Positions 45,356 through 61,251 of a DNA stretch of 64,000 bases are shown in pieces. Under the pieces are notes generated by a model, which was not told the origin of the DNA, made no database searches, and worked only from the letters and a program-made list of their open reading frames with translations. A program made the position numbers and the translations under genes. Positions within the stretch are counted from its first letter, which is position 1. Every line of letters starts with the position of its first letter. Source of the DNA: Peribacillus simplex (GTDB lineage: Bacteria; Bacillota; Bacilli; Bacillales; DSM-1321); contig NZ_CP011008.1 in NCBI RefSeq assembly GCF_001578185.1, positions 4,368,001 to 4,432,000 on the forward strand, written 5' to 3'.

Positions 45356-46603
45356 TTACAACTCTATTGACTGCTTTTGTTTATACAGTGAACCGGAAAC
45401 TAAATTCCCCTTGTAAATGACCGCTTTACGTTCAGAACGCCTCGCAACCGCTTCTGCAGAACAGCTCGCGTCAATCAATACTAAGCTTGCAGCATCCCCA
45501 GCTTTCGGCCATATTCGGTTACCATTTTCATCTAATGGAGTTTTTCCGCCCGTTATATACCCAAGTGTTCGAGATAGGGAGACTTCATCAATCCATTTGA
45601 AGCGTTCCGCCAGCCTGCCGGCTCTCTCTAAGATGTCGCCATTCCCTAGAGGTGACCATACATCAAAGATATTATCATTACCTACTGATACTTCAACCCC
45701 TCTTTCATGTAATAAATCGACAGGGGGCATCTGTCTGTTAATGGGGACGCTGGTGACGATGGAAATCCCCGCATCCCTAAGAATGTCAGCCAGCTCATAG
45801 GCTTCTTCCTTGGATACGTCCCCTATACCGAACGCATGGCTTAATGCTACCCTGCCTTCCCAGCCTGCTTGCTTGGTCAGAGCTGCCAAACGTTTCATGG
45901 TGAACGTGCCCAGGTGGCCGGGATCATGTAAATGCAAGTCCACATCAGCGTCCGCTTCCACTGCTAGATCCATCAATTGCACAAGCGAAGCTTCAATATT
46001 GTTATCGACTGATGCTGGATCGACTGCCCCGACGATTCCTGCCCCGTTTCGCAATGCCTCCCTGACAAGCTTGGCAGAACCCGACCGCAACAATCCGTGC
46101 TGGGCAAATGCGACGATTTCTGAACTGAGTCTACTAGAATAGCCGGCAAGCGCCTGTTGTACTTGCTCTAAGTTTTGCAATCTCACTTCCGGGTAGATAT
46201 CAACATGAGTCCGTACATGTGTGGAGCCAGAAGCTAAAAGTATTTCCAGTAAAGACTCTGCACGTTTACATGTGCTAGTTGCAATGGAAGGCAAAACCTT
46301 TTTCTCATTTTCAAAGCGTTCAATGACACTCGAGGAAGGAGTGCATGCTCTCCAAGCATCCCCCATCAGTGTTTTATCAAGATGGACATGCTTTTCAATG
46401 AAGGAGGGTAATGCCAGCAATCCTTTTGCATCTTCCACTGGTGAATCATTAGGTATGGCTTCCCCATCATTGATAATCTTCGTGATTTTTCCATCCTTCA
46501 CCAACAGATGAAATAGCCCAGTTATCGTTCCTGTAACTCTTTCATTCTCTTTCCGGTAACCACATTCCAAACGAACATTCTTTAACAAATAGATTGTATT
46601 CAT
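45356..46603 (-). CDS. Cytosine deaminase-like amidohydrolase, tandem copy 1
   Basis: A roughly 415-residue cytosolic amidohydrolase of the CodA/AtzC branch. Metal ligands are in IEKHVHLDKTLMG (HxH), DVDLHLHDPGHLG, LSHAFGIGD, and the Asp of SVGNDNIFDVWSPLG. The position of the catalytic Glu of E. coli CodA (HCDE) is Asp here (HLHD), so cytosine itself may not be the substrate. I start at the ATG for MNTIYLLKN, nine bases after AGAAGGG. It ends a run of three related genes. Confidence 0.8.
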   Translation of the reverse strand: MNTIYLLKNVRLECGYRKENERVTGTITGLFHLLVKDGKITKIINDGEAIPNDSPVEDAKGLLALPSFIEKHVHLDKTLMGDAWRACTPSSSVIERFENEKKVLPSIATSTCKRAESLLEILLASGSTHVRTHVDIYPEVRLQNLEQVQQALAGYSSRLSSEIVAFAQHGLLRSGSAKLVREALRNGAGIVGAVDPASVDNNIEASLVQLMDLAVEADADVDLHLHDPGHLGTFTMKRLAALTKQAGWEGRVALSHAFGIGDVSKEEAYELADILRDAGISIVTSVPINRQMPPVDLLHERGVEVSVGNDNIFDVWSPLGNGDILERAGRLAERFKWIDEVSLSRTLGYITGGKTPLDENGNRIWPKAGDAASLVLIDASCSAEAVARRSERKAVIYKGNLVSGSLYKQKQSIEL

Positions 46604-46631
46604 GCCCTTCATCCCTTCTTGAAATAGACAT

Positions 46632-47882
46632 TCAATTCGCCTTCAAGGCAGATTCGCAGTCGAGTCCACCGTAAACAAGATTTCCATTGATCATGACTGC
46701 AGCGCGCGTCGATCTCCTGGCAACTGCCTCGGCAGCACTTGATGCATCCACAAATACCATACTTGCGTCATTTCCCACATTCGGCCATAAACGATTTCCT
46801 TCAGGGTCCAGTGTCTTGACCCCGCCCGTAATGAATTGGAGCGATTGAGACAATCCATACTCGTCCTTCCAGTTGTACCTCTCAGCCAATCTTCCTGCCT
46901 TTTCCAGCATATCTCCTGTACCGAATGGAGACCAGGAGTCATAAAAACCATCACATCCGAGAGCAACATGGACACCCTTTTCATGAAGTAAATCAATGGG
47001 GGGAATTACCCGGTTTATCGGAACAGTAGACATGATGGCTATTCCTAGGTTTGATAAAATACTGGCCAGTTCATGTGATTCTTCAATAGGGACATCCCCA
47101 AGTGCAAAGGCATGACTGACAGCCGCTCTATTTTTCCATCCAGCTTCCTCGATTAAAGAAGCCAGTTTTTTGATCGTATAAAATCCAAGATGACCTGGAT
47201 CATGTATATGGATATCAATATCCGCATCAAACTCAACGGCTAGATCCACCATTTCATATAGGGAAGCTTCAATATTATTATCCACTCCACCAGGATCCAA
47301 GCCTCCCACCAAAGCCGCCCCTTCTTTCATCGCTTGTCTCATTAACCCTTTTGAATTCGTCCTTAGCAGTCCATGCTGGGGGAAAGCCACGATCTCATAT
47401 GTCATTTTTCCTTTGAAACTACTTAGCGCCTTTTGAATTTCTTCCAAGTTTTTCATACCGATGTATGGGTCAATGTTAACATGCGTCCTTATATGCGTCG
47501 CACCGCCTCTTAACAATAGTTCAAGCATCCGTTCAGCCCGGAGTCGCCCAGTTTCAGCAAGTTCAGCAAGCTCTTCCGCTTCTAGTTTTAAGCGTTCCAT
47601 TAAATTCGGAACCGGAGTGCATGATTTCCAGGGCAGTCCTAAATAGGTCTTGTCCAGATGGTTATGCATCTCTTTAAAAGGAGGAAGTGCAAGCAGCTTT
47701 TTCGCGTCTTGAACGGGCATATCCGTTTTCAAAGGCATACTTGAGGCCAATTGCAATTCCTCTATGATCCCATCTTTTATATACATGTTGTATGGAGCTG
47801 TCTTTGTTCGAACAATTCTTTCATTCTCAAAAACAAATCCACTATCAAGTGTAACGTTTGTAAGCCAGTATGCTTTATTCAT
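46632..47882 (-). CDS. Cytosine deaminase-like amidohydrolase, tandem copy 2
   Basis: A 416-residue paralogue of its two neighbours. It keeps FKEMHNHLDKTYLGLPWKSC (here His-Asn-His in the first metal motif), DIDIHIHDPGHLG, VSHAFALGDVPIEE and LGCDGFYDSWSPFG. The gap to copy 1 is 28 bases and to copy 3 is 26 bases, so all are one transcript. Close but clearly diverged sequences suggest subfunctionalised enzymes acting on related heterocycles, not fresh duplicates. Start is the ATG behind AGAGAGTG. Confidence 0.8.
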   Translation of the reverse strand: MNKAYWLTNVTLDSGFVFENERIVRTKTAPYNMYIKDGIIEELQLASSMPLKTDMPVQDAKKLLALPPFKEMHNHLDKTYLGLPWKSCTPVPNLMERLKLEAEELAELAETGRLRAERMLELLLRGGATHIRTHVNIDPYIGMKNLEEIQKALSSFKGKMTYEIVAFPQHGLLRTNSKGLMRQAMKEGAALVGGLDPGGVDNNIEASLYEMVDLAVEFDADIDIHIHDPGHLGFYTIKKLASLIEEAGWKNRAAVSHAFALGDVPIEESHELASILSNLGIAIMSTVPINRVIPPIDLLHEKGVHVALGCDGFYDSWSPFGTGDMLEKAGRLAERYNWKDEYGLSQSLQFITGGVKTLDPEGNRLWPNVGNDASMVFVDASSAAEAVARRSTRAAVMINGNLVYGGLDCESALKAN

Positions 47883-47908
47883 CAAATTTCACTCTCTTTA
47901 ATAGAAGA

Positions 47909-49156
47909 TTAAACACCTGTCGTCTCGAAAGATGAAATAGATCCGCTAACTACATTGCCCCTGAAGATGACAGCGGCACGCTTTGATCTTCGGGCCACCG
48001 CTTCCGCTGAACAGCTTGCTTCAAGCAAAACGATATTCGCCACATCCCCGACATTAGGCCATGCCTTGATCCCGTCTTGGTTTAATGGGGTAGTCCCTCC
48101 CGTTATGAATTGCAGGCTTTTAGCTAATGAGCGTTCGTCAATCATGCGAAACCTCTCTGCAAGGCGGCCGACCTTTTCCAGATTGTCCCCAATGCCAAAG
48201 GGTGTCCAATGGTCAGTGATGCTGTCATTACCCAGTTCGACTTTCACCCCTTTTTCATGGAGCAGGGGGATGGGGATCGTCCTGAAGATAGGCACTGTGG
48301 ATGTAATGGATATTCCTGTTTCCGAAAACCTTTCGGCTATACTCGTTGCTTCTGGAACTGAAACATCTGCCAAACCGCTGGCGTGGCTAACCGTTACCCT
48401 TCCTTGCCAGCCTGCGTCTTCCGTCATGGAAGCGAGACGTTGCATCGTAAAGAGTCCAAGCTGATCCGGATCATGTAAATGGACATCGATATCGGAATTC
48501 GATTCAACCGCGATATCCATGATCGTTTCAAGGGACCGCTCTATATTTTCATCAATTGTGGCGGGATCCACGCCTCCTACAAGATTCGCCCCATACTTCA
48601 TGGCCTCCCGTAGTAATCCTGCGGAATTTGAGCGTAATAGTCCATGCTGTGGGAATGCGACGATTTCATACGTCAATTTATCCTTATACCCTTCTAACGC
48701 TTGAATGGTGGCCTCTAAATTTTTCAGACCTATCACGGGGTCAATGTTACAATGGGTGCGTATATGGGTAGATCCGAAGTCCAATAATAAATCCAGCATT
48801 TTTTCTGCTCTTACTTTAGCGGTAGGCAATAACTCGGGAAGTAAGACCTGCTCTTCCTCTATCCGGGTTTTCACGCCATTAATGGCAGGCATGCAAGCCT
48901 TCCAAGGTCCGCCATAGTACGTTTTATCAATGTGAATATGCATTTCTTTAAATGAAGGGACCATCAGGAGACCGTGAACATCATGCTGTGGGTCCTGATC
49001 TGTTATCGATTCCTTCGCTAATAAAATGGATGATATTATTCCATTTTCAATCTTAATGTGGTAATTTCCCGTTTCAGTACCGGTAATCGTTTCATTTTCA
49101 TCATAAGTAAAACCATTTTCCAAGCGTACATTCGTCAACCAATACGATTGTGACAT
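47909..49156 (-). CDS. Cytosine deaminase-like amidohydrolase, tandem copy 3 (first in transcript)
   Basis: A 415-residue paralogue with FKEMHIHIDKTYYGGPWKAC, DIDVHLHDPDQLG, VSHASGLADVS and LGNDSITDHWTPFG. All have the PWKAC or AWRAC stretch after the first metal motif. ATG 49156 follows AAGGGTGA at about six bases. Its promoter carries the shared ATTTTTACT direct repeats and a TATAAT box, so it belongs to the predicted regulon. Confidence 0.8.
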   Translation of the reverse strand: MSQSYWLTNVRLENGFTYDENETITGTETGNYHIKIENGIISSILLAKESITDQDPQHDVHGLLMVPSFKEMHIHIDKTYYGGPWKACMPAINGVKTRIEEEQVLLPELLPTAKVRAEKMLDLLLDFGSTHIRTHCNIDPVIGLKNLEATIQALEGYKDKLTYEIVAFPQHGLLRSNSAGLLREAMKYGANLVGGVDPATIDENIERSLETIMDIAVESNSDIDVHLHDPDQLGLFTMQRLASMTEDAGWQGRVTVSHASGLADVSVPEATSIAERFSETGISITSTVPIFRTIPIPLLHEKGVKVELGNDSITDHWTPFGIGDNLEKVGRLAERFRMIDERSLAKSLQFITGGTTPLNQDGIKAWPNVGDVANIVLLEASCSAEAVARRSKRAAVIFRGNVVSGSISSFETTGV

Positions 49157-49198
49157 TAAACTCACCCTTCCATTCCAGATTGAACATGCGTCCCTTTC

Positions 49199-49262
49199 AT
49201 TATAATTCTTAAGATCATCTAATAATTTCAGAATTTTTACTCTTTTTTATGTTATTTTTACT
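49199..49262 (-). promoter_or_regulatory. Regulon promoter of the three-deaminase transcript
   Basis: The -10 box TATAAT (minus strand, + coordinates 49199-49204) has no -35 consensus. Direct repeats ATTTTTACT on the + strand lie at 49233-49241 and 49254-49262, 21 bases apart. The nearest repeat starts 34 bases from the -10 start, as in the two other promoters of the cluster. Confidence 0.75.
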
Positions 49263-49263
49263 T

Positions 49264-49310
49264 ATTGTGCCAAAGAAAAAAGGCTCACCCTAATGGATGA
49301 ACCCTTTCTT
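49264..49310 (-). terminator. Terminator after the second binding-protein gene
   Basis: GGTTCATCC/GGGTGAGCC (with G-T pairs) around ATTA is followed by TTTTTTC on the minus strand, right after the binding-protein stop. Confidence 0.7.
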
Positions 49311-49322
49311 CTTATCTCCCCA

Positions 49323-50888
49323 TCACTTTATCGTTACTTCATTTATTTCCAGATAGCCTGAAGGACTGATTGAAAACCCTTTTACACCTTTCGAGACTGC
49401 GGCAACATTTTCAATGACCCTTACAGGAATATATGGGGTATCACTCATCTCAATCTCTTGTGCTTCTGAGTATAGGTCTTTGCGTTTTTCTTCGTCTTTT
49501 TCTTTACGGGCAGCATCTATTAAATTATCAACCTTTGGATTGCTGTAAAAGAAGGTATTTCCAGCCGCTCCCTGTGATTCCGTATGAAATAGATTATATT
49601 GATTATAATCGGCATCCCCGGTCGCGTTTCTCCAACTGATGATGAACATTTCCGATTCCCCTTTATTTACTTGTTCAACGAACGAACCGTACTCCATGAC
49701 CTGAACCTTCAAATGGATCCCGATACCTTTTAACTGTGATTGAAGTACTTCTGCCAAATTAACTCTTTCTTTACTATCCATTGTTAGAATAGTCGCATCA
49801 AGACCTTTAGAATAACCAGCTTCAGCCATCAATTTCTTTGCTTCTTTAAGATTGTAATCATAGGTTTTCAGATCAGCGTCGTACCCGAATACCTTAGATC
49901 CCATTAAGGAATTTGCCTTTACACCAACATTATTAAAGACACCCTTAATAATGGAATCCATTTCAATGGCATGGGCTATGGCTTTACGAACACGGACATC
50001 ATTAAACGGTTCTTTATTTACATTAAATCCTATATATTCGGTACCATACCCTTCATTGCGGTAAACATCCATAGCCGCTGAGGATTCTACCTGGTCCATG
50101 ACAGCTACAGGAAGAGGTTCTGCAATATGTGCTTCTCCCGTTTCTATCATCGATATCCTCGTGGAATCTTCAGGGACGACCTTGAAGATAACTTTGTCCA
50201 CCTTTGGCTTGTCTCCCCAATAATTTTTGTTTTTCATCAATGTAATTTCTTGGCCTGGTGACCATGAATCAAAAACGAAAGGACCTGTTCCATTCGGCTC
50301 TTGGATAATTTTTTTTCCGTACTTTTCAATCGTTTTTGGACTGATGATTCCGCCTTCGTGATTCGCCAAGATGGAAAGCAGCGGGGAAAAAGGTTCCTTC
50401 AGAATGAATTGCACGGTATATTCATCAACCGGTTTCACTTCTTTTACCATATCGAATACTACCGCTCTAGGAGAAGCGACCAACGGATCCAATAGTCGAT
50501 CAAACGTCTTTTTTACTGCAGCTGCATTAAATGGTGTGCCATCATGAAACGTTACATCATGCCTAAGCTTGAACTCCCAGGTCGTGTCATTTATTTGCTT
50601 CCATTTTTCGGCCAGCATAGGCTGTATCTCACTATTCTCATCACGCTGGACAAGACCTTCATAGATTTTATGGTGAGTGACGCTAGCGGCGTTAATCGTG
50701 GACATGAACTGCTGATCCAAATTCTCGGCGTCGGATAAGCGGGCAATGACCAGTGTACCCCCTTCGTTTGATGCTTTGTTCGGATCACTTGCTGTTGTGC
50801 TTACGTCATTGTTAGAAGAACAGCCAGTAATGATGATAACCATGAACATGATTAGGAAAAGCTTTCCTGCCCCACGCTTCAATCCCAT
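49323..50888 (-). CDS. Family 5 extracellular solute-binding lipoprotein, copy 2
   Basis: A 521-residue lipoprotein. The signal peptide ends at lipobox ITGC (Cys at about residue 23), followed by a polar linker and a SBP_bac_5 domain (LADAENLDQQFMSTINAAS-like start with SDAENLD, then GLVQRDENSEIQPMLAEKWK, DGTPFNAAAVKKTFDRLL and GTGPFVFDSWSPGQEI). Such proteins deliver peptides, nickel, glutathione or other compounds to Opp/Dpp transporters. Closely related to the other binding protein at 54074-55630; one ABC system encoded by four genes on the + strand serves both. Ribosome site GGAGG nine bases before ATG. Confidence 0.87.
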   Translation of the reverse strand: MGLKRGAGKLFLIMFMVIIITGCSSNNDVSTTASDPNKASNEGGTLVIARLSDAENLDQQFMSTINAASVTHHKIYEGLVQRDENSEIQPMLAEKWKQINDTTWEFKLRHDVTFHDGTPFNAAAVKKTFDRLLDPLVASPRAVVFDMVKEVKPVDEYTVQFILKEPFSPLLSILANHEGGIISPKTIEKYGKKIIQEPNGTGPFVFDSWSPGQEITLMKNKNYWGDKPKVDKVIFKVVPEDSTRISMIETGEAHIAEPLPVAVMDQVESSAAMDVYRNEGYGTEYIGFNVNKEPFNDVRVRKAIAHAIEMDSIIKGVFNNVGVKANSLMGSKVFGYDADLKTYDYNLKEAKKLMAEAGYSKGLDATILTMDSKERVNLAEVLQSQLKGIGIHLKVQVMEYGSFVEQVNKGESEMFIISWRNATGDADYNQYNLFHTESQGAAGNTFFYSNPKVDNLIDAARKEKDEEKRKDLYSEAQEIEMSDTPYIPVRVIENVAAVSKGVKGFSISPSGYLEINEVTIK

Positions 50889-50929
50889 GGACTTCGACCT
50901 CCAGATTTCATTTTTTGAACACTTATCTA

Positions 50930-50993
50930 ATTATAGGAAATATTCTGACTATTTATTTTGAAAATCTTTACTATGTTTTTCATTTTCTTTACT
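50930..50993 (-). promoter_or_regulatory. Regulon promoter of the second binding-protein gene
   Basis: TATAAT on the minus strand (50930-50935), no -35 consensus, and + strand repeats ATCTTTACT (50964-50972) and TTCTTTACT (50985-50993) 21 bases apart. The boxes lie inside the 3' coding end of the upstream amidohydrolase gene. The spacing to -10 (34) matches the other two promoters. Confidence 0.75.
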
Positions 50994-52496
50994 TGTTTTC
51001 GTAAATTGTTTTCTCGCTTTTGCATCGCTTATCGATTCCACGATCTTAAATGATGGCTTAAACAATTCTTTCTCGGGAAGCTTCTGATAATCTCTTTCCA
51101 GATATCCTCTTCTCATCTTATCAAAATACTTTTGCCCCTTATATTTGATTTCTTTTAAATCAAGATTGGGGATTTTTTGATCCTTCATGACTACTTTTCC
51201 ATTTATGATGGATAATTTAACGTCCCTCCCAGACCCACTTACGAACATGGTCCGAATGGGATCATCGATTACGCCCATATGATATCTGTCCAAATCAATC
51301 GCAATGATATCAGCTTTTGCCCCTGCTGCAATGCGGCCAAGATCGTTCCTGCCAAGAAAAGCAGCCGCATCAAGTGTGGCTGACCGAAAGAAATCGGCAT
51401 AGACAGAGCCGTCCGTTTCTCCTTCCACCATCCGTGAGAGCATGCTCCCTATCCTTACGTTCTGGAACATATCCGGAGGGAAGGTGTCCGTTCCAAGGGC
51501 TATATTGATCCCAGCCCTTTTATATTTAGCGAATGATTCTAACGCTTCCCCATGCCTCCCGATAATCAGGGGGCAATGAATCACCGTTGTATTCGTTTCT
51601 CTTAGCAGCGCCAAGTCATCACCCTGTCCATATTTCGCTCCACTGTATCCTGAAACAAAGTGGGCATGCGGGATCCCTGTTCTTGGACCGAGAAAACCAA
51701 GGTCGTACAAATATCTGATTGGTGTAACATGATGGGCCTCCCAGATGGTGTTGAATTCAAAACTTCCTTGTGCGGCATGGAGCTTAATCGGGACATCCAA
51801 TTTTTCGCTGTAATATTTGATCTGTTTTAATTGCTCTGCCGTTTGGGACTCTATACGTTCTGGAGCGAGCATCCCTCTGACCATGCCTCCATGGGCTCCA
51901 TCGAATTTTTCTACAAACTCCACCGCTTTTTGCAATCCCGCTTCACCGGCTTTTTCATCCCAATGCAGTTTTATATTTCCGTTAGGCTGGACGACTCTCA
52001 TTCCTGATTGGAAACTCGGGCCCAGGTAAATCCTTAACCCCAATTCAGCTGCATGTTTTGCCGCAGCTGCCAATTCTTCATAGGTTTCGGCCCAGCTTTT
52101 ATAAAAAACGGAAGTGATAGGCATGGCCGTCGTCACACCATGAAGAATGAGTTGTGAATAAGCATATAAAGATTTAAAGGATTCTTCTTCCTCGGTCATT
52201 AATTCGGGATGTCCGCTTTGTATATGATTCTCTGACCAGAGAAGGTTTTTCTGTCTGTCCGCACCGGCTTCAAAATGTAAAATATCATGGTCAATGTCCC
52301 CTAATGCATTTAAATCTATGAACCCAGGACTGATAATGGCGTTACCGGCATCCATTACCTCGTCCACTTCTTCATTGTAATTTTTCCCTACATACAGTAT
52401 CGTGTCTTTTTCATAAACGATCTCTGCGTTTTCCAAAATGACATGATCGCACCCATCATACCCAATTACATATCTTCCTTTAAGCTTGGTTTTCAT
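50949..52496 (-). CDS. AtzB/TrzN-like amidohydrolase with an altered first metal motif
   Basis: A 515-residue amidohydrolase-fold protein. The usual first HxH is replaced by IDLNALGDIDHDILHF, while the later ligands KLHAAQGSFEF, PHAHFVSGYSG, VIHCPLIIGRHG and the Asp in ALGTDTFPPDMFQN are present. I recall a similar LxAL-DIDH motif from hydroxyatrazine hydrolase-like enzymes, so the site may still be active with a different first shell. The ATG overlaps the previous gene's TGA. The C-terminal 60 residues are basic and family-variable. Operon: binding protein 1, amidohydrolase 5, this gene. Confidence 0.75.
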   Translation of the reverse strand: MKTKLKGRYVIGYDGCDHVILENAEIVYEKDTILYVGKNYNEEVDEVMDAGNAIISPGFIDLNALGDIDHDILHFEAGADRQKNLLWSENHIQSGHPELMTEEEESFKSLYAYSQLILHGVTTAMPITSVFYKSWAETYEELAAAAKHAAELGLRIYLGPSFQSGMRVVQPNGNIKLHWDEKAGEAGLQKAVEFVEKFDGAHGGMVRGMLAPERIESQTAEQLKQIKYYSEKLDVPIKLHAAQGSFEFNTIWEAHHVTPIRYLYDLGFLGPRTGIPHAHFVSGYSGAKYGQGDDLALLRETNTTVIHCPLIIGRHGEALESFAKYKRAGINIALGTDTFPPDMFQNVRIGSMLSRMVEGETDGSVYADFFRSATLDAAAFLGRNDLGRIAAGAKADIIAIDLDRYHMGVIDDPIRTMFVSGSGRDVKLSIINGKVVMKDQKIPNLDLKEIKYKGQKYFDKMRRGYLERDYQKLPEKELFKPSFKIVESISDAKARKQFTKTSKENEKHSKDFQNK

Positions 52497-54007
52497 CTTA
52501 TTCCCCTTTCCGCATGGCCGGCAGCGTCTTCGCGTTCGTCATATCGCTTTTCATCTACATATGCCCTGGCGTGTCCCCAGAAATATTTCGTCGGCTGCAT
52601 GTACTTTTCGAGCCCGGCACGCTTTATCGTTGAAAAGGCCTCCTCATTCGCTTCATCAAGCACTGTACTTTCATGAACGGTCCGTACAATCCTCCCCTCC
52701 ATGATCAATTTCCCATCAACGATGACATGCTCCACATCATTCGCCACTGCTTGAAACACAAGCCGATGAACATGCATGAATTCAGGGGTCAGATGTGGCT
52801 GATGCAGATTGACCGTAATGACATCGGCTTTTTTCCCAATCTCCAGGGAGCCTATTTCATCATCCCAGCCAATGCATTTAGCAGCATCTATCGTGATCAT
52901 TTCCAACAGCTTGCCTGGGGGTAAATAATAGTAATCCCTTAGGGCTGCCTGGTGAACAAACTGTGTTTTCCTCATTGCCTGGAACATATCGAAACTTGTG
53001 GAAGGGGAAGTCCCATCCGTGGAGATTGCCACAGTTGCCCCCATCTCCAATAATTCGGTTATGGGGGTACGTGCATGAACCTGGCCAAATCCAGGTGATG
53101 CACTGACGTTTGTACCTGTTTCCGCCAATATTCTTGCCTCATCAAAGGAAATGCCGCGACAGTGCTGTAAATGAACATCTGGACCCAACAAGGCATTTTC
53201 CTTATCCTGTATCGCTAAATGAATCATCCCGCCAAAGGCATCAGAGTGTATCCGTGTGTTATATTTCCTGGCAATCTCCCTTATTTTCTTCGCTTGATAA
53301 AGATCATGATCATTCAGCCCATAAAGCCTGTCAGGAGATGTGGGATTGGAAGGATCAACGGATGTAACGATGACAAATGGTGTAATGAAGGCTCTCGTGC
53401 GGTCTTCATTTGCATGGTTCAGTGCCTCGATTACAGCTTCTGCCCCCTTCAATACTCCTTCATAGGAAACTTCCTTTACCATTCTCTTTCCGTCAATCCA
53501 CCTACTGAACGAATGTGGCCATGGAGGGTTACAGGGCCCGGTGCAAACCACTTCCCTGATTCCCACTTCGGCGTATGCTTTTGTGTGATTGATGGCGAAA
53601 ATCGGTTCATCGGATCGTGGCATGGACCCTAAAACGCTCACACCTGTTGTTACACCCGCCTTTAATCTCTCAAGAGAGGAGAGCTTTCCTTCGTAGTACC
53701 AAAAGTCATCTGTTACAAAATGTTTATACGTATTTGTCATGATGGGCATCCAAAAATCAATATTCTCCATCGCTATCGTTTTGAACATGGAATGCCCCCC
53801 ATGACCATGAACGTCTATTAATCCGGGCAATATACACTGATGGCTGCAATCAATGACCTTTACAGCCTCATACTTCAATTGCAGTTTCTCGGTTGCATCA
53901 ACGGCTAAAATCCTTCCTTGATTTATGGCGATGGCGCCATCCGGCAGAATTCTCCTGTTTTGATCCATGGTTATCACGGTCCCATGGATTAGCAGTAAAT
54001 CAATCAT
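52493..54007 (-). CDS. ATZ/TRZ-type amidohydrolase with complete metal site
   Basis: A 504-residue amidohydrolase. Motifs: LIDVHGHGGHSMF (HxH), TRIHSDAFGGMIHLA, HLQHCRGISFDEA and VAISTDGTSPSTSFDMFQAM. The fold core is residues about 45-430; a C-terminal tail with MQPTKYFWGHARAYVDE follows. It should hydrolyse or deaminate an exocyclic amine or ring amide. It is coupled to the next gene by a four-base overlap. GGAGGGG is four bases before ATG; a strong hairpin lies between it and the binding-protein gene upstream. Confidence 0.82.
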   Translation of the reverse strand: MIDLLLIHGTVITMDQNRRILPDGAIAINQGRILAVDATEKLQLKYEAVKVIDCSHQCILPGLIDVHGHGGHSMFKTIAMENIDFWMPIMTNTYKHFVTDDFWYYEGKLSSLERLKAGVTTGVSVLGSMPRSDEPIFAINHTKAYAEVGIREVVCTGPCNPPWPHSFSRWIDGKRMVKEVSYEGVLKGAEAVIEALNHANEDRTRAFITPFVIVTSVDPSNPTSPDRLYGLNDHDLYQAKKIREIARKYNTRIHSDAFGGMIHLAIQDKENALLGPDVHLQHCRGISFDEARILAETGTNVSASPGFGQVHARTPITELLEMGATVAISTDGTSPSTSFDMFQAMRKTQFVHQAALRDYYYLPPGKLLEMITIDAAKCIGWDDEIGSLEIGKKADVITVNLHQPHLTPEFMHVHRLVFQAVANDVEHVIVDGKLIMEGRIVRTVHESTVLDEANEEAFSTIKRAGLEKYMQPTKYFWGHARAYVDEKRYDEREDAAGHAERGIR

Positions 54008-54025
54008 ATTTCCCCTCCTAATTGA

Positions 54026-54063
54026 GAAGGCAGCATAACATCCTTATGCTGCCTTCCTTTTTT
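54026..54063 (-). promoter_or_regulatory. Stable stem-loop between binding protein and downstream amidohydrolases
   Basis: A 13-bp perfect stem GAAGGCAGCATAA/TTATGCTGCCTTC with a 5-base loop. On the minus strand it lacks a T-run, so it more likely stabilises the binding-protein mRNA and lowers downstream expression than fully terminates. On the + strand it does have Ts. Confidence 0.6.
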
Positions 54064-54073
54064 GCTGAATTCC

Positions 54074-55630
54074 CTACTTCACGGTTACATCATCAAGCAT
54101 TAAATAATTTGCCGGATTCAGCCAAAGCCCTTTAACCGTCCCTCCATATACGGCCAAGTGCTCATAGTTGCGAATAGGAACATATGGTACTTCTTCCCTT
54201 TCAATTTCTTGTGCCTTCGAATATAGTTCCTTACGTTTATCGGCATCCGATTCTTGACGTGCATTTTCAATCAATTTATCCACTTCCTTGTTGCTATAGA
54301 ATGAACTATTTCCCGCAGCACCTTGGGATTTGCTATCAAAAAGATTGAATTGATTATAATCTCCATCGCCGGTAGCATTGCCCCAGCCGCCTATCGATAC
54401 TTGGTGCTCGCCCTTAGCGGTCGCGTCAATGTAGGCCCCATACTCAAGGACCTGAATCTTGACCTTAATTCCAATTCCTTTTAACTGGGATTGAATCACC
54501 TCCGCCATGTTGATCCTTTCCTTACGATCACTCGTTGTCAGTGTAAACTCCAAGCCATCCTTGACCCCTGCTTCAGTCAAGAGCTTCTTCGATTCATTAA
54601 TATCATAGTCATAGCCTTTTATATCCGGATCATAGCCAAACACCTTTGGGCTCATTGTTGAATTTGCCCTCGTACCGACGTCGTTATAAACCCCTTTGAT
54701 AATCGAATCGACCTCGATGGCATGTGCGACCGCTTTACGGACACGTACATCATCGAAAGGTTTTTTCTTAACATTGAAGCTTAGGTATTCAACTGCAAGT
54801 CCCTCCGTGCGATATAAATCCATCGTGTCCGATGCTTCGATCCTCTCAATCTCGGTCACTGGCACTTGATCGGTCACATGTGCTTCACCCGTTTCAATCA
54901 TCGCAATCCTCGTAGCATCTTCAGGTACAACCTTGAATACTACCCCATCAATCTTAGGTTCATCCCCCCAGTAGTCCTCGTTTTTCGAAAGTACGATCTC
55001 TTCACCGGGCTTCCACGATTTAAAAATGAAGGGTCCTGTCCCAACGGGGTTTTGGCCTAGTTTATCACTATGCTCCTTAATGGCTTTAGGGCTGATGATG
55101 CTTCCTTCATTACTAACTAAAATAGATAACAGTGGAGCATAAGGATATTTCAGCTTGAATTGTACGGTAGTATCGTCAACCACTTTAATTTCTTTGATCA
55201 TTTCCAATTTACCGGCCTGCGGAGAAGCTGTTGCCGGATCCAGTATCCTGTCGAAATTGGTTTTCACCGCTTCGGCATTGAATGGAGCTCCATCATGGAA
55301 CTTGACTCCCTCTTGCAATTTAAATTCCCAAGTGACATCATCCAGTTGTTTCCACTCTTTTGCCAGCAGCGGCTTAGGATCCATGTTTTTATCAGGAACG
55401 ACCAATGTTTGATAAACCTTTTCATAAACGACGTTTGCTGATGGAATGTCTGTTATGAAGTGAGGGTCCAGGCTGGTCGCGTCAGATAATCGGGCGACGA
55501 TTAGTGTACCTCCTTCTTTCGCTTTTCCTTCCGATTCCTTGCTGCCGGTTTGATCTGTTGCACACCCAGATAAAATGGATGAGATGCCTAATAACGATGC
55601 GAATAGTACTCCAATCATACCTTTTCTCAT
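54074..55630 (-). CDS. Family 5 extracellular solute-binding lipoprotein, copy 1
   Basis: A 518-residue lipoprotein starting MRKGMIGVLFASLLGISSIL with lipobox LSGC (Cys near residue 23). SBP_bac_5 motifs: VARLSDATSLDPHFITDIPS, DGAPFNAEAVKTNFDRIL and GTGPFIFKSWKPGEEIVLSK. Start choice: ATG 55630 has GGGAGG seven bases upstream, while the open frame runs 13 codons further without a site or signal. Highly similar to copy 2, suggesting related ligands. First gene of the leftward operon with two amidohydrolases; the matching permease and ATPase genes are divergent. Confidence 0.88.
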   Translation of the reverse strand: MRKGMIGVLFASLLGISSILSGCATDQTGSKESEGKAKEGGTLIVARLSDATSLDPHFITDIPSANVVYEKVYQTLVVPDKNMDPKPLLAKEWKQLDDVTWEFKLQEGVKFHDGAPFNAEAVKTNFDRILDPATASPQAGKLEMIKEIKVVDDTTVQFKLKYPYAPLLSILVSNEGSIISPKAIKEHSDKLGQNPVGTGPFIFKSWKPGEEIVLSKNEDYWGDEPKIDGVVFKVVPEDATRIAMIETGEAHVTDQVPVTEIERIEASDTMDLYRTEGLAVEYLSFNVKKKPFDDVRVRKAVAHAIEVDSIIKGVYNDVGTRANSTMSPKVFGYDPDIKGYDYDINESKKLLTEAGVKDGLEFTLTTSDRKERINMAEVIQSQLKGIGIKVKIQVLEYGAYIDATAKGEHQVSIGGWGNATGDGDYNQFNLFDSKSQGAAGNSSFYSNKEVDKLIENARQESDADKRKELYSKAQEIEREEVPYVPIRNYEHLAVYGGTVKGLWLNPANYLMLDDVTVK

Positions 55631-55706
55631 TCTATTTCCTCCCTTTTCAACCTGCCTTTGTTTCTCCAAGTAACTTTCAGCTATGAGTACATCGGGCTTA
55701 CTTCAA

Positions 55707-55792
55707 ATTATAAGAAAAAAAAGAATTTTATATTTTCAGAATCTTTACTCATTTTTTAATTATCTTTACTGCTTTTCCGCATCATATTTACT
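55707..55792 (-). promoter_or_regulatory. Regulon promoter of binding protein 1, between divergent operons
   Basis: TATAAT on the minus strand (55707-55712) with AAATAT at the -35 position. + strand repeats ATCTTTACT at 55741-55749 and 55762-55770, and ATATTTACT at 55784-55792, with 21 and 22 base steps. This is the strongest site, with three boxes, and it could also serve the rightward ABC operon starting at 55841. Confidence 0.78.
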
Positions 55793-55840
55793 TCAATACA
55801 TATTTTGAATAAATTTAATGAAAGAAAAGGAGGAAATCCA

Positions 55841-56743
55841 ATGAAGCCAGAGGTCGTCTTGAATAATACCGAATTGAAGGTAAACGAAAGAAAATCTCCA
55901 AAACTAAGAAACTGGAAAGCTTTTTATAAAAAATTCAAGAGAAATAAATTGGCATTGATAGGCGGGTACATCGTACTTTTTTATATTTTATTGGCCATGT
56001 TTGCACCTTTGATTTCACCACAGGATCCCTATGAAATTGATTTAGTCCACAAACTCCAGCCTCCGTCAGCCGAACATTGGATGGGTACGGATGATAAGGG
56101 AAGGGATATTTTAAGCAGATTATTATATGGAACAAGGCTTTCATTAACGGTTGGGTTTGTCTCTGTATTTTTCGGGGCGTTCATCGGCATACTGCTTGGG
56201 TTAACAGCAGGTTATTACGGAAAATGGATCGATACCATCATTATGAGGATTGTCGATGTTCTGCTGGCTTTCCCGGGAATATTGCTGGCTCTTGCCATCA
56301 TTAGTGCCCTTGGCCCAAGTTTAATTAATGTAATGGTAGCGGTCGGTGTCTTTTCCATACCGATGTTTGCCCGGATTGTACGCGGTTCCACATTGTCAGT
56401 CAGGAAGCTGGAATATATCGATGCCATTCGTGCATTGGGAGCCACTGACTTCACGATCATACGCAAGCACATTTTTCCGAATATTCTATCACCCGTCATC
56501 GTTCAAGCTACATTACGTCTGGCAACGGCCATTCTGTCGGCAGCCGGATTATCATTCCTTGGATTGGGAGCCCAGCCTCCCTCACCGGAATGGGGAGCCA
56601 TGCTGAGCAGCGGTCGGGATTATTTGTTCAGCGCCCCTCACATCGCCTTGTTTCCCGGAATAGCCATATCAACACTGGTGCTGGGTTTCAACGTCTTCGG
56701 GGATGGACTTAGAGATGCTCTGGATCCAAGAATGAAAAAATAA
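55841..56743 (+). CDS. Opp/Dpp-type ABC permease (OppC-like)
   Basis: A 300-residue permease. An N-terminal cytoplasmic stretch (PKLRNWKAFYKKFKRNKLAL) precedes TM1; the OppC N-terminal domain signature MGTDDKGRDILSRLLYGTRL follows, and the EAA loop is in LGATDFTIIRKHIFPNILSP. ATG 55841 has AAGGAGG seven bases upstream, so I reject the frame's earlier start. First gene of the rightward operon C, B, D, F. Confidence 0.88.
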   Translation: MKPEVVLNNTELKVNERKSPKLRNWKAFYKKFKRNKLALIGGYIVLFYILLAMFAPLISPQDPYEIDLVHKLQPPSAEHWMGTDDKGRDILSRLLYGTRLSLTVGFVSVFFGAFIGILLGLTAGYYGKWIDTIIMRIVDVLLAFPGILLALAIISALGPSLINVMVAVGVFSIPMFARIVRGSTLSVRKLEYIDAIRALGATDFTIIRKHIFPNILSPVIVQATLRLATAILSAAGLSFLGLGAQPPSPEWGAMLSSGRDYLFSAPHIALFPGIAISTLVLGFNVFGDGLRDALDPRMKK

Positions 56744-56755
56744 GGAGGAGAGAAA

Positions 56756-57676
56756 ATGTTCGTTTTTATAATCCGACGGGTCTTTCAAACCATACCGGTT
56801 TTACTAGGAGTGAGTCTTGTTGTTTTCCTCATCATGCAAATGGTCCCTGGAGATCCGGCAACACTGCTTGCAGGTGAAGGGGCTACTAAAGAAACGATTG
56901 AATCGCTGCGACATGATCTTGGTCTTGATCGTCCAATCCTCTATCAGTATGCAGACTATATCATTCATGCTGTACAAGGTGACTTTGGAGAATCTCTCCG
57001 CAGCAGCCGCCCTGTTTTGGACGAAATCATGGTCCGCTTGCCAATCACCCTTGAACTGGCACTTGCAAGCATTTTCATAACCGTTGTCCTTGGAATGCTG
57101 GCAGGAATCATCTCGGCAACCAAACAATACTCGGTATCTGACATTTCCATCATGATCGTTGCTTTATTAGGAATCTCATTACCTAGTTTCTGGTTAGGTC
57201 TGATGCTTATCTACTTCTTTTCCGTAAACCTTCATTGGTTTCCGGTTTCAGGTTGGGGAACCATTAGGCACATGATTCTCCCAGCCATAACCCTTGGGGC
57301 CGGCGGAGCGGCCATTGTAGCAAGGATGACCAGGTCGAGCATGCTCGAAGTCGTTCGCCAGGACTACATCCGGACTGCAAGAGCAAAGGGATTAAAAGAA
57401 TATGTCATCATTTATAAACATGGCCTGAAAAATGCGCTTATCCCCGTCATTACGGTCGTGGGCCTCCAGTTCGGTGCACTACTCGGCGGTACCGTATTGA
57501 CAGAGTCCGTATTTGCCATCAATGGTCTTGGGAGATTGATAGTTGATGCAATCAGAACGAGGGATTTACCAATGGTTCAAGGCGGGGTCCTTATTGCTTC
57601 CGTTATCTTCGTATTCATGAATTTGGCAGTGGATGTCCTCTATCGATACTTTAACAAAAGAATAGACTTGAATTAA
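56756..57676 (+). CDS. Opp/Dpp-type ABC permease (OppB-like)
   Basis: A 306-residue permease with six helices. N-terminal [20 protein letters not shown] and [14 protein letters not shown] are typical of OppB/DppB, and the EAA loop is [20 protein letters not shown]. Forms the channel with the OppC-like partner. Thirteen bases after that gene, with GGAGGAG as ribosome site. Confidence 0.9.
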
Positions 57677-57685
57677 GGAGGCAGG

Positions 57686-58714
57686 ATGATGAAACAGGTT
57701 GATGATAAAATACTTGAGGTAAAAAATCTGCAGACCCACTTTTTCACTGACGAAGGAACGAGTAAAGCAGTCAACGGAATCAGTTTCTCCCTCAATAAAG
57801 GGGAAACCCTCGGAATCGTCGGGGAGTCTGGAAGTGGTAAAAGTATAACATCCTTATCATTATTAAGGCTTATTCCATCGCCCCCTGGAAAGATTGCCGG
57901 GGGCAGCATCCTTTTTAAAGGGGAGGATCTGCTTACGAAGACTGAAAAACAGATGCGATCTATACGCGGTAATGAAATTTCGATGATATTCCAAGAGCCG
58001 ATGACATCATTGAATCCCGTATATTCAGCGGGTGAGCAAATTGCAGAAGCCATCCGGCTCCATCAAAATCTGGGAAAAAAAGAAGCATGGAACAAAGCCG
58101 TCGAAATGCTTCGGCTCGTCGGGATCCCCTCACCTGAAAAAAGGGCAAAACAGGAGCCGCATGAGCTAAGCGGCGGAATGAGGCAAAGGGTCATGATTGC
58201 CATGGCACTTGCCTGCCATCCTGAGGTTTTAATAGCGGATGAACCTACAACGGCACTGGATGTGACGATCCAAGCCCAAATCCTCGAACTGATCAAGACG
58301 CTGCAAAAGGATTTCGGGACGGCTGTCATTTTGATTACTCATGATTTGGGGGTCGTATATGAAACCTGCGACCGGGTTGCCGTCATGTACGCAGGAAAAA
58401 TAGTTGAATACACTTTGGCCAAGGAAATATTCACAAACCCAAAGCATCCATACACCATCGGTTTATTAAAATCCCTTCCACGATTGGATATGGACCAGGA
58501 AGAACTGACTACAATTCCCGGGACTGTTCCAAGTCCTTACAACATGCCCAAGGGCTGCAGCTTTGCTCCCCGCTGTGCAAATAAGAAGAGCATTTGTGAA
58601 CAAGCCGTACCGGATCTCCAGGCAACCGGTCCAAGCACCCAGGTCAGCTGCTGGATGTTCACCCCCCAATGGGAGAAGGACTATAACACTCAAGAAGAGG
58701 TGGGGGTTTTATGA
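57686..58714 (+). CDS. Opp/Dpp-type ABC ATPase (OppD-like)
   Basis: A 342-residue ATPase: Walker [21 protein letters not shown]-loop [19 protein letters not shown], signature [15 protein letters not shown], Walker [22 protein letters not shown]-loop [11 protein letters not shown], and the C-terminal oligopeptide extension with [14 protein letters not shown], a cysteine cluster typical of the family. Two adjacent ATGs after TAAGGAGG are possible starts. Last codons overlap the next gene. Confidence 0.9.
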
Positions 58715-59700
58715 TGGGGGTACCAGTTGCAGAGAAAAAGGTTTTGCTTAAAGTAGATCAATTGAAACAATATTTTCCGATCAAGGGTGGATTTTTCGGA
58801 AGAACCGTCAATCATGTAAAAGCCGTTGATGATATTAGCTTCCATATCTATCAGGGTGAAACCTTAAGCATAGTGGGCGAATCAGGCTGCGGAAAATCGA
58901 CCACCGGAAGGGCCATCCTTCGATTGGATGAACCTACAAGCGGGAGCATTCACTTTCAGGACAAGGATTTACTCAGTTTAGGAAAAAAAGAAATGAGGAG
59001 CACCAGGAAGGACTTGCAAGTTATTTTTCAAGATCCATTTGCCTCTCTTAATCCTAGGCAGACTATAGGGCAAATCCTCGGAGAAGCTTTGGCCATCCAA
59101 AATGTAGTGCCTAAAGAAAAACGAAAGAGCAGGATTGAAGAATTATTGGGCCATGTGGGGCTGAGACCGGAGTCCATGGAAAGATACCCGCACGAATTCA
59201 GCGGCGGCCAGAGACAGCGGGTCGGCATTGCACGGGCTCTTGCAGTAGACCCAAAATTGATCATTTGTGACGAAGCTGTATCTGCACTTGATGTCTCCAT
59301 TCAAGCACAAGTACTGAATCTATTAAAATCCTTACAGCGACAGTTCGACCTTACCTTTCTTTTCATCTCACATGATTTGGGAGTGGTCAGGCATATCTCG
59401 GATCGCGTAATGGTCATGTATCTCGGAAAGATAGTCGAAATAGCAGATAAAAAGTCCATTTTCGAACAGCCGCAGCATCCATATACGAGAGCATTGCTAT
59501 CTGCCATCCCAGTACCGAATCCGGTGCATGAAAGAGAACGAATCCTATTAACGGGTGATGTCCCCTCACCCATCGATCCTCCTAGCGGCTGCCGCTTCCA
59601 TACACGGTGCCCTTTTGCGATGGACATCTGTAAAACACAGTTACCCGAGCTAAAGCTCTCAGCACAAAATCATCAAGTGGCCTGTCACATTGTGTCATAA
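58711..59700 (+). CDS. Opp/Dpp-type ABC ATPase (OppF-like)
   Basis: A 329-residue ATPase: [20 protein letters not shown] at the start (OppF hallmark), Walker [19 protein letters not shown], signature [15 protein letters not shown], Walker [21 protein letters not shown], and the C-terminal [14 protein letters not shown] cluster. ATG overlaps the preceding TGA (ATGA). With the OppD-like gene it forms the heterodimeric motor. Note Glu-Ala-Val-Ser in Walker B, a common variant in OppF. Confidence 0.9.
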
Positions 59701-59788: not shown

Positions 59789-60556
59789 ATGCTTAGTTAC
59801 GAGGGATTCACGTTAATTATCATGCTCTTCATTTTAGCTCCCATCATGGGAGCTATCGCTCTTTTATTTTTATTCATATTCGAGAAAAGGATCGACCTTC
59901 TTGAAAATAGAAACAAAGAGATACGCCTGGAGCAAGCACTGCAAGAAGCACAATATAATAAATTGAACCAGCAAATCCAGCCCCACTTTTTATTTAATAC
60001 ACTAAATGTCATTTTGGGATTGGCCCGCCTGAACAGGACGGCTGAATTGATACGGGCCTTAGAGGCATTTTCGCAATTCTTGAAATTCAAATATAAAGCT
60101 TCAGAACCATTAATCCCCCTTTCCCAGGAAATTCAGTATACCCAGCATTATCTCGACATCCAGACCCTACGTTTTGGTGACCGCCTTAAGATTGATATGG
60201 AGTGCCCAAACCCATTATCAATCGCACTGGTACCCCCTTTCATTCTCCAGACCTTAGTGGAAAATTCGTTTAAACACGGATTGGAAAAAAAAGTGGGGGA
60301 AGCCCTTCTGCATATCCGGTTCTATCGGGATTCGCAGATGGTGTATCTGGAAGTGGCGGATAATGGTTTAATGGGAAATGCATCTTCCGTTACTGACGAA
60401 GGCGGCCATGGCCTGGATAATATCCAAAAACGTTTATATCTGTATTTCAGTGACCGTGCACAATTGAATATATCTTCTAATGAATCGGGAACAAAGGTAG
60501 AGGTATCATGGCCACTTGTTTATGATAAGAAAATGGAGGAGGCGGCCCCGGAATGA
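59789..60556 (+). CDS. LytS/YesM-type sensor histidine kinase without a sensor domain
   Basis: A 255-residue kinase. One strong hydrophobic segment (about residues 8-30), possibly a hairpin, is followed by a short coiled coil (RIDLLENRNKEIRLEQALQE), the His_kinase box NQQIQPHFLFNTLNVILG (His near residue 66), and an HATPase_c domain with QTLVENSFKHGLEKK and GGHGLDNIQKRL. YesM-type kinases normally carry a large extracellular Cache domain; this one has none, so it must sense through its membrane segment or a partner. Overlaps the response regulator gene by four bases. Confidence 0.87.
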   Translation: MLSYEGFTLIIMLFILAPIMGAIALLFLFIFEKRIDLLENRNKEIRLEQALQEAQYNKLNQQIQPHFLFNTLNVILGLARLNRTAELIRALEAFSQFLKFKYKASEPLIPLSQEIQYTQHYLDIQTLRFGDRLKIDMECPNPLSIALVPPFILQTLVENSFKHGLEKKVGEALLHIRFYRDSQMVYLEVADNGLMGNASSVTDEGGHGLDNIQKRLYLYFSDRAQLNISSNESGTKVEVSWPLVYDKKMEEAAPE

Positions 60557-61251
60557 ATGTATTATTAGTTGATGACGAACCATTGGTCCTTGAACAAATG
60601 GAATATATGATTCAGTCCATTTATCCTTTTTGGAAGTTTCATAAAGCTGCTGATGCCTGTCAGGCACTGACCTTCAACCAAAATTATAAAATTAATCTCG
60701 CTTTCCTGGATATTAATCTCCCCGGGCGATCGGGTCTTGAATTTGGTGAAGACCTAAGGGCACTGAACAAAGAAGTGGAAATCATAATGGTGACCGCGCA
60801 TCAAAGTTTCGATTATGCCCAGCAATCCATAAGGATAGGCGTGGTTGATTATTTAACGAAGCCTGTAATAGAAAGCGATTTGCAGAAAGTGCTATCCAGA
60901 TATGATAAAAGGGAGTCTTCCCATAACTATTCAACCCTGATTCACCATTCTCTTTCATTCATACATGAAAATTATGCTGAAAAACTCTCCCTTTCGGATA
61001 TCGCTCGTGAAGTGCATACCAACCCGACTTATTTAAGCAGGAAATTCCATGAAGAAGTCGGTACTTCCTTTTCGGAATATATAATGCAATATAGAATAAA
61101 AGCTGCTAAAAGGGCCTTAACCAATAACACCAGCTGGAGCATATCAGATGTCGCTGAGAACTCAGGTTTCAATAGCCAGCATTATTTCAGCACTTTATTC
61201 CGGAAGATAGAGGGAATCACTCCTAAAGAGTTCCGCGAGAAAGGAAAATGA
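60553..61251 (+). CDS. YesN-type response regulator with AraC HTH
   Basis: A 232-residue regulator: receiver domain (residues about 1-115) with Asp pair VDDEP, phospho-Asp in LAFLDINLPGRSG (Asp 53) and Lys in YLTKPV; then an AraC double HTH (about 130-230) with LSLSDIAREVHTNPTYLSRK and SISDVAENSGFNSQHYFSTL. AraC-type proteins commonly bind two direct repeats about 21 bases apart, exactly the spacing of the ATCTTTACT boxes in this cluster. It is the best candidate activator of the three promoters. Confidence 0.9.
   Translation: MNVLLVDDEPLVLEQMEYMIQSIYPFWKFHKAADACQALTFNQNYKINLAFLDINLPGRSGLEFGEDLRALNKEVEIIMVTAHQSFDYAQQSIRIGVVDYLTKPVIESDLQKVLSRYDKRESSHNYSTLIHHSLSFIHENYAEKLSLSDIAREVHTNPTYLSRKFHEEVGTSFSEYIMQYRIKAAKRALTNNTSWSISDVAENSGFNSQHYFSTLFRKIEGITPKEFREKGK

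Follow-up and report, generated by a model that had tools for sequence, protein, structure and literature searches.

Three minus-strand promoters with tandem half-sites at a 21-bp pitch as the predicted regulon of a YesN-type response regulator in Peribacillus simplex

A 64,000-nucleotide stretch of Peribacillus simplex DNA (RefSeq assembly GCF_001578185.1, contig NZ_CP011008.1, positions 4,368,001 to 4,432,000; hereafter the window) contains three minus-strand promoters, P1, P2 and P3, that are very probably class II activator promoters of one regulon under the YesN-like response regulator encoded at 60553-61251. The geometry of the sites, their conservation, their genome-wide specificity and their co-occurrence with the regulator were computed directly. 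The promoter elements, in window coordinates with plus-strand numbering, are:

49254..49262, minus strand: P1 distal box AGTAAAAAT; 8 of 9 positions invariant in 20 unselected sequences of the genus
49233..49241, minus strand: P1 proximal box AGTAAAAAT; 9 of 9 positions invariant in the 20 sequences
49199..49204, minus strand: P1 -10 box TATAAT, ahead of amidohydrolases 3, 2 and 1; invariant in the 20 sequences
50985..50993, minus strand: P2 distal box AGTAAAGAA, within the 3' end of the chlorohydrolase gene in this genome
50964..50972, minus strand: P2 proximal box AGTAAAGAT
50930..50935, minus strand: P2 -10 box TATAAT, ahead of the gene for solute-binding protein 2 (SBP2)
55762..55770, minus strand: P3 distal box AGTAAAGAT
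55741..55749, minus strand: P3 proximal box AGTAAAGAT
55707..55712, minus strand: P3 -10 box TATAAT, ahead of the SBP1 gene and probably also of the two amidohydrolase genes behind it

Each promoter has a pair of AGTAAARAW boxes 21 bp apart on the minus strand, and in all three TATAAT begins 37 nt past the start of the proximal box on the coding strand; in plus-strand coordinates the distance from the -10 box to the nearest box is 34 and from box to box 21. The preliminary description of this DNA had reported TATAAT boxes at 49199, 50930 and 55707, spacings of 34 and 21 bases, and no -35 consensus. All of this was borne out: the coordinates match, the spacings hold in all three promoters, and the hexamers at spacers of 16-18 match TTGACA at 0-2 of 6 positions, so that P1, P2 and P3 are without a -35 hexamer. 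The coding-strand site can be written as AGTAAAGAT-N5-AAAA-N3-AGTAAAGAT-N5-AAAA, two bipartite half-sites in tandem, with the AAAA of the proximal half-site located at -35. The arrangement is that of an AraC-family class II promoter, with direct-repeat half-sites spaced by about 21 bp, a proximal half-site that overlaps -35, a poor -35 and a good -10. The araI1-I2 site of Escherichia coli AraC likewise consists of two directly repeated bipartite half-sites at a distance of 21 bp, of which the proximal overlaps -35, whereas E. coli AraC senses arabinose through its own domain and the protein considered here has a receiver domain and a kinase, and the half-site sequence differs.

In the proposed mechanism, the phosphorylated AraC-type regulator would bind as a head-to-tail pair of monomers to the two bipartite half-sites (AGTAAAGAT-N5-AAAA), which at a separation of 21 bp, or two helical turns, would lie on the same side of the double helix. 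Upstream of TATAAT, the proximal half-site would have its second subsite at the -35 position, and because this AAAA subsite lies there, the regulator is predicted to substitute for the missing -35 contact and to recruit RNA polymerase. P3 would drive SBP1 and probably the deaminase-like and chlorohydrolase genes behind it, P2 would drive SBP2, and P1 would drive three PRK06846 amidohydrolase genes. Binding by the regulator, activation, these operon extents, and an imported nitrogen-rich heterocycle or ureide as the signal are predictions from sequence.

With up to three mismatches permitted, the pair pattern has five matches in the window compared to 0.53 expected, a number reached by 0 of 100 shuffles; the two matches beyond P1-P3 fall within an array of 21-bp tandem repeats. 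Across the 5.5-Mb genome, exact pairs occur at P1, P2 and P3 only, and these remain the only matches when the site is required to have TTT in the middle of the spacer and one mismatch is permitted; three one-mismatch matches elsewhere in the genome were set aside for lack of the mid-spacer TTT. The genome-wide search with up to two mismatches (43 + 25 matches) is uninformative because the reversed control pattern gives no fewer (51 + 62). The 21-bp tandem repeats, in which TTTACT recurs every 21 bp in many copies, were considered as related sites and rejected, their conserved core being CTCGTGA by eye. Arrays of these repeats are located at 22134-22815 of the window (about 33 copies, consensus unit AAACTCACGAGTAAATCGCTC) and at G000:C1:4353422-4354149, and short stretches resembling the repeat are present at several further places in the genome.

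Conservation of the site was evaluated in 80 loci centred on relatives of the regulator, the best 80 of 124 found. A matrix that spans the boxes and AAAA but excludes the -10 box was trained on 23 unique sites of Peribacillus/Gottfriedia-type loci, with the 99th percentile of 300 Markov-shuffled locus maxima as the threshold, and 60 loci (L064-L123, from Neobacillus, Cytobacillus, Sporosarcina, Psychrobacillus, Paenibacillus, Brevibacillus and others) were held out. Exact or one-mismatch pairs occur in many of the 80 loci, and pairs with up to two mismatches usually have TTT in the middle of the spacer. Above-threshold sites are present in 54 of the 60 held-out loci, and 115 of the 116 matrix matches there are on one strand, facing the side of the binding-protein and amidohydrolase genes. 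The distance between paired boxes in the held-out loci is 21 bp in 47 of 53 cases, and the other six lie elsewhere in the range of 9-45 bp; the opposite strand has four box pairs in total. After removal of the upstream members of tandem sites (161 sites reduced to 150 proximal sites), TATAAT with at most one mismatch is found 36-38 nt away at 147 of 150, 124 of them at 37; the held-out proximal sites account for 107 of 109 at 36-38 nt, with 84 at exactly 37, compared to 7.6% in shuffled downstream DNA. The 21-bp pitch and the 37-nt distance to the -10 box are retained in loci whose regulators are about 50% identical. The preliminary description had named conservation of the boxes in orthologous loci as a check, and its outcome was favourable: pitch, orientation and -10 distance are kept in every case of a closely conserved regulator and in the majority of the distant loci that were inspected.

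Alignments of the promoters within the genus were made without selecting sequences for the presence of boxes (L179 and L180, guessed P2 places in two genomes in which the P2 site was not found, were dropped). In the P1 footprint of 20 sequences, the boxes are 0.98 and 1.00 conserved and TATAAT 1.00, compared to 0.66 for the upstream DNA and 0.82 for the stretch from box to -10. The boxes of P2 (17 sequences) and P3 (21 sequences, Gottfriedia included) are 0.99-1.00 conserved, and conservation downstream of P3 is 0.70.

The preliminary description had one site embedded within a coding sequence. This is true of P2 in this genome, where the chlorohydrolase open reading frame (515 amino acids) extends up to about 20 codons past the end of most relatives, through the P2 boxes (50949-50993), and the aligned frame of genome G023 likewise reaches through the site without a stop. 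The in-gene position is lineage-specific: in 12 of 18 Peribacillus/Gottfriedia loci that have both a P2-type site and a called chlorohydrolase, the site lies 4-77 nt after the chlorohydrolase stop codon (4-31 nt in 11 loci, 77 nt in L055), in four others the end of the open reading frame overlaps the site by 5 nt and in one by 1 nt, and in L045 the open reading frame is broken and uninformative. Thus, the DNA site is kept while the end of the reading frame shifts.

Presence of the site follows presence of the regulator. Of the 36 genomes of the genus, 20 encode the regulator with at least 89% identity; each of these contains at least one exact site, and none of the remaining 16 does. Among 397 genomes of the order, exact sites were found in all 15 whose regulator reaches 78% identity, in 2 of the 34 that have a homologue of 42-54% identity (near the homologue in G233, far from it in G235), and in 4 of 348 without a homologue at E 1e-60; the reversed control pattern gave 17 matches in this search by hand count. 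Cluster loss accounts for part of the co-occurrence because the sites and the regulator share one cluster; beyond that, the co-occurrence shows how rarely the site turns up in other places.

Several observations weigh against a regulon of this kind. The exact pattern is absent from 32 of the 34 order genomes with a 42-54% homologue, although looser matrix sites were found in most loci of similar regulator identity among the 80. Six of the 60 held-out loci (L092, L095, L100, L108, L110, L122) are below the matrix threshold; decayed boxes with the same architecture can be seen by eye at the equivalent position in all six. P2 was not found with one mismatch permitted in three of the 20 regulator-bearing genomes of the genus (G020, G021, G037). 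Lone one-mismatch matches outside the cluster occur in 4 of the 20 regulator-bearing genus genomes and in 3 of the 16 others, a frequency like that of the reversed control pattern (24 matches in the 36 genomes by hand count). The target genes provide no informative case of presence without the regulator, which is carried by all 18 order genomes that have the chlorohydrolase (E 1e-120). The footprint contrast is small at P2 and P3 because their upstream flanks are also well conserved (0.90 and 0.89), and it is sharp only at P1. The locus counts are not independent, because the loci share ancestry and were gathered through homology of their regulators. A lone one-mismatch site at G041:C4:86616-86645, on a separate contig far from the cluster, resembles the Paenibacillus version of the motif.

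The proposed activator and the two genes that flank it are:

60553..61251, plus strand: YesN-type response regulator, proposed activator (Response_reg E 2.1e-24, HTH_AraC E 8e-27)
59789..60556, plus strand: histidine kinase (PF06580 E 5.5e-22)
61255..62583, plus strand: SSS-like membrane protein, possible co-sensor (TIGR00813 E 8.5e-12, 44.8 bits, below the cut-off of 184; no Pfam match)

The regulator has a receiver domain (PF00072) and a C-terminal AraC-type helix-turn-helix domain (PF00165/PF12833), both above cut-off, and its nearest named relatives are from Peribacillus frigoritolerans and P. simplex (97% identity). In an alignment of 84 sequences (the regulator itself and relatives of at least 48% identity, with homologues below 48% dropped), the presumed recognition helices, which were placed by hand from the motif, have an average conservation of 0.87 and 0.89; the DNA-binding domain averages 0.71 and the receiver domain 0.74. 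All 84 regulators have Y160, S162, R163, F165, S208, Q209, Y211 and F212, and 82 have H210; SQH at 208-210 is absent from the five AraC-type paralogues examined in this genome, some of which do have Y211 and F212. The phospho-acceptor aspartate D53 and the lysine K103 are present in 84 of 84. By eye, the N-terminus of the kinase contains a single hydrophobic helix, and Pfam matched no sensor domain in the protein. The domain types of the kinase and regulator are those of Bacillus subtilis YesM/YesN, the targets of which are different. Kinase, regulator and SSS genes were called together near the centre of 71 of the 80 loci; the nine misses of automatic calling are lone second regulators (L064, L101, L113), regulator open reading frames that were not called (L072, L076, L079) and genes beyond the tested range (L071, L102, L104). 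The second regulators, at 9983 in L064, 9932 in L101 and 9944 in L113, are 67-69% identical to that of the window, have no kinase called beside them and are divergent from the chlorohydrolase gene in loci that also hold the kinase-linked regulator; they are orphan regulators that may share the same sites. An EamA-family transporter gene is located immediately behind the SSS gene in L066 (12032-12919, Paenibacillus) and L074 (12053-12946, Brevibacillus).

Activation by the regulator may be combined with repression by CodY through TCWGAAWATT elements in the core promoters, a supplement to the single regulon that is a real possibility at somewhat less than even probability. The genes would then be expressed only when the inducer is available and levels of preferred nitrogen or branched-chain amino acids are low, a consequence that is just as tentative. 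With the CodY consensus AATTTTCWGAAAATT taken from the available text of PMC4608796, two candidate boxes are located in the window:

50939..50953, minus strand: hypothetical P2 CodY-like box AATAGTCAGAATATT, 3 mismatches to AATTTTCWGAAAATT by hand count
55731..55745, minus strand: hypothetical P3 CodY-like box AAGATTCTGAAAATA, 3 mismatches; overlaps a regulator subsite

Among 118 unique core promoters (duplicates, sites without a -10 box at 36-38 nt and sites too near the end of a locus were left out), 65 contain a CodY-like box with at most three mismatches, some overlapping a regulator subsite, compared to 2.0% of 606 control intergenic windows and 5.8% of the 154 AT-rich windows among them. 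Promoters of the SBP2 type commonly have a TC.GAATATTT element immediately upstream of TATAATTAGA, and in 29 of 42 the CodY-like box is at offset 18-20, clear of the regulator boxes. A CodY match above cut-off was found in 10 of 10 genomes tested, and the B. subtilis braB motif AATTgaCAGAAtATT (3 mismatches), as given in the available text of PMC4608796, closely resembles the P2 element. However, the matches in SBP1-type promoters overlap a regulator subsite and may reflect the regulator alone, the SBP2-type elements mostly have GAATATT where the consensus has GAAAATT, P1 has four mismatches, 0 of 12 amid1-type promoters have three or fewer, and the core-promoter sequences are related by descent.

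A quite improbable alternative is that the boxes bind another regulator encoded elsewhere, such as a one-component AraC protein, and that the neighbouring two-component system controls something else. The genome has 14 AraC-type or receiver-domain matches at E 1e-8 or better, the window's own regulator included, and the scan for regulators covered 10 window proteins and not the open reading frames that flank the 80 related loci. The exact sites, however, are limited to the cluster and absent from the 16 genus genomes without a close copy of the regulator, and the presumed recognition helices are conserved alongside the sites, unlike those of the five paralogues. The attribution to one regulon under the YesN-type regulator, as in the preliminary description, is supported by the conservation of the sites and by the AraC-type response regulator being the only protein with a DNA-binding domain among the 10 window proteins scanned against Pfam; its binding to the boxes is predicted. 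That the repeats are DNA conserved by descent beside conserved genes, or an AT-rich coincidence, with no regulatory role is scarcely credible, for although a syntenic cluster is expected to share some flanking DNA and conservation is high in the flanks of P2 and P3 too, the boxes keep their 21-bp spacing and their 37-nt distance to the -10 box at about 50% regulator identity, those of P1 are far more conserved than its upstream flank, and sites precede unrelated genes.

The genes and other elements on both sides of P3, in addition to those given above, are:

45356..46612, minus strand: amidohydrolase 1, PRK06846 (550 bits, cut-off 447)
46632..47885, minus strand: amidohydrolase 2, PRK06846 (571 bits, cut-off 447)
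47909..49165, minus strand: amidohydrolase 3, PRK06846 (601 bits, cut-off 447)
49323..50888, minus strand: SBP2, family 5 solute-binding protein (SBP_bac_5 E 9.4e-103)
50949..52496, minus strand: chlorohydrolase-family amidohydrolase PRK06151 (NF004801, 665 bits, cut-off 416)
52493..54007, minus strand: amidohydrolase resembling 5'-deoxyadenosine deaminase (Amidohydro_1; best NCBIfam match below cut-off)
54074..55669, minus strand: SBP1, family 5 solute-binding protein, with the ATG at 55630 as probable start (SBP_bac_5 E 1e-108)
55784..55792, no strand assigned: third box, ATATTTACT on the plus strand, typical of divergent SBP/oppC promoters
55805..56743, plus strand: oppC-type permease, start probably the ATG at 55841 (BPD_transp_1, OppC_N)
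55807..55812, plus strand: GAATAA, at the position of a conserved GATAA-like element on the oppC side
56756..57676, plus strand: oppB-type permease (NF045470, 354 bits, cut-off 350)
57686..58714, plus strand: oppD-type ATPase (best NCBIfam matches below cut-off)
58711..59700, plus strand: oppF-type ATPase (NF008453, 443 bits, cut-off 408)

The third box lies 22 bp beyond the distal box of P3, as the preliminary description had it; its assignment there to P3 is doubtful, and the box most probably belongs to the divergent oppC side. ATTTAC is found 22 bp past the distal box in 59 of 65 oppC-facing sites compared to 9 of 85 others, and a GATAA-like element follows 10-24 nt further on in 58 of 65 divergent sites, compared to 5 of 85 others and 2.3% of shuffles. 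Because both elements are largely restricted to oppC-facing sites, the third box most likely serves the divergent promoter of the oppCBDF-kinase-regulator-SSS genes, where it would be an autoregulatory site of the regulator or part of the -35. An extra activator site for P3 alone is less likely, the box being mostly restricted to divergent promoters.

The sites stand before unrelated genes: two families of solute-binding proteins, several amidohydrolases, an allantoinase and an M24 peptidase. The allantoinase gene is behind the site in L094, L097, L098 and L121 (all four were scanned and match TIGR03178 above cut-off), and in L097 (12831-16451) it is followed by allantoate deiminase and ureidoglycine aminohydrolase genes. 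In Brevibacillus the gene behind the site encodes a carbohydrate-type binding protein (L071 scanned), and in L081 and L083 an M24 peptidase, the site of L083 being weak (10.3). L099 has a gene slightly under the allantoin-permease cut-off after the SSS gene, and amidohydrolase 3, the product of the first gene after P1, has N-isopropylammelide isopropylaminohydrolase (6nbo) as its best PDB match. The target genes point to nitrogen-rich heterocycles or ureides, and the CodY-like boxes in core promoters, with the allantoinase genes behind sites in relatives, suggest scavenging of nitrogen heterocycles.

The mechanism belongs to a known kind. AraC-type hybrid two-component systems (HTCS) of Bacteroides thetaiotaomicron have predicted direct repeats averaging 21 bp, which in the available text of PMC3878776 are read as sites at which monomers sit on the same face of the DNA, separated by two helix turns. 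The likeness lies in an AraC-type helix-turn-helix as the output of a response regulator and in direct repeats of about 21 bp; as described there, an HTCS is a single fused polypeptide with a periplasmic sensor for polysaccharides, whereas here the kinase and regulator are separate, the motif is another, and the genes are amidohydrolase and ABC-transport genes of Bacillales. XydS/XydR of Clostridium cellulolyticum is likewise a Firmicute two-component system in which an AraC-type response regulator activates catabolic genes, with binding by its effector domain shown (PMC3572039); its targets are hemicellulase-type genes, and the available text lists shared repeats for two bound regions and no consensus. 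The sensor kinases CbrA and CrbS, in the accounts available, also join a sodium/solute-symporter-like SLC5 module with a histidine kinase, with the difference that module and kinase are fused via STAC, whereas the kinase here is of another type and is encoded separately from the SSS-like protein (open reading frames 59789-60556 and 61255-62583), and their coupling is only proposed. A broader model, rather unlikely in its entirety, is Bacillales-wide scavenging of nitrogen heterocycles by a split transceptor: the separate SSS-like protein would sense or transport the heterocycle or ureide and signal via the one-helix kinase that lacks a recognised sensor domain, the AraC-type regulator would activate through the 21-bp tandem sites and autoregulate through the third box, and CodY would veto the promoters under nitrogen sufficiency.

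The motif and regulon were not found in literature searches, outside of which most subscription journals lie. To our knowledge, few Firmicutes YesN-type regulators have a defined DNA site. Here the site, its pitch, the -10 distance and the accompanying regulator residues are defined across several families; thus, the regulon is open to direct tests, and operons of unstudied Bacillales can be annotated with the motif. A functional handle is also gained on a widespread cluster of amidohydrolase and peptide-type transporter genes.

Adjoining the amidohydrolase genes is a uracil/xanthine-type permease gene (43638-44942; PRK11412, above cut-off), for which the matrix gave no above-threshold regulator site. 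A stem-loop with a 13-bp stem is located at 54026-54056, between the SBP1 gene and the deaminase-like gene; because its T-run is on the plus strand, it may limit or protect the minus-strand transcript instead of terminating it.

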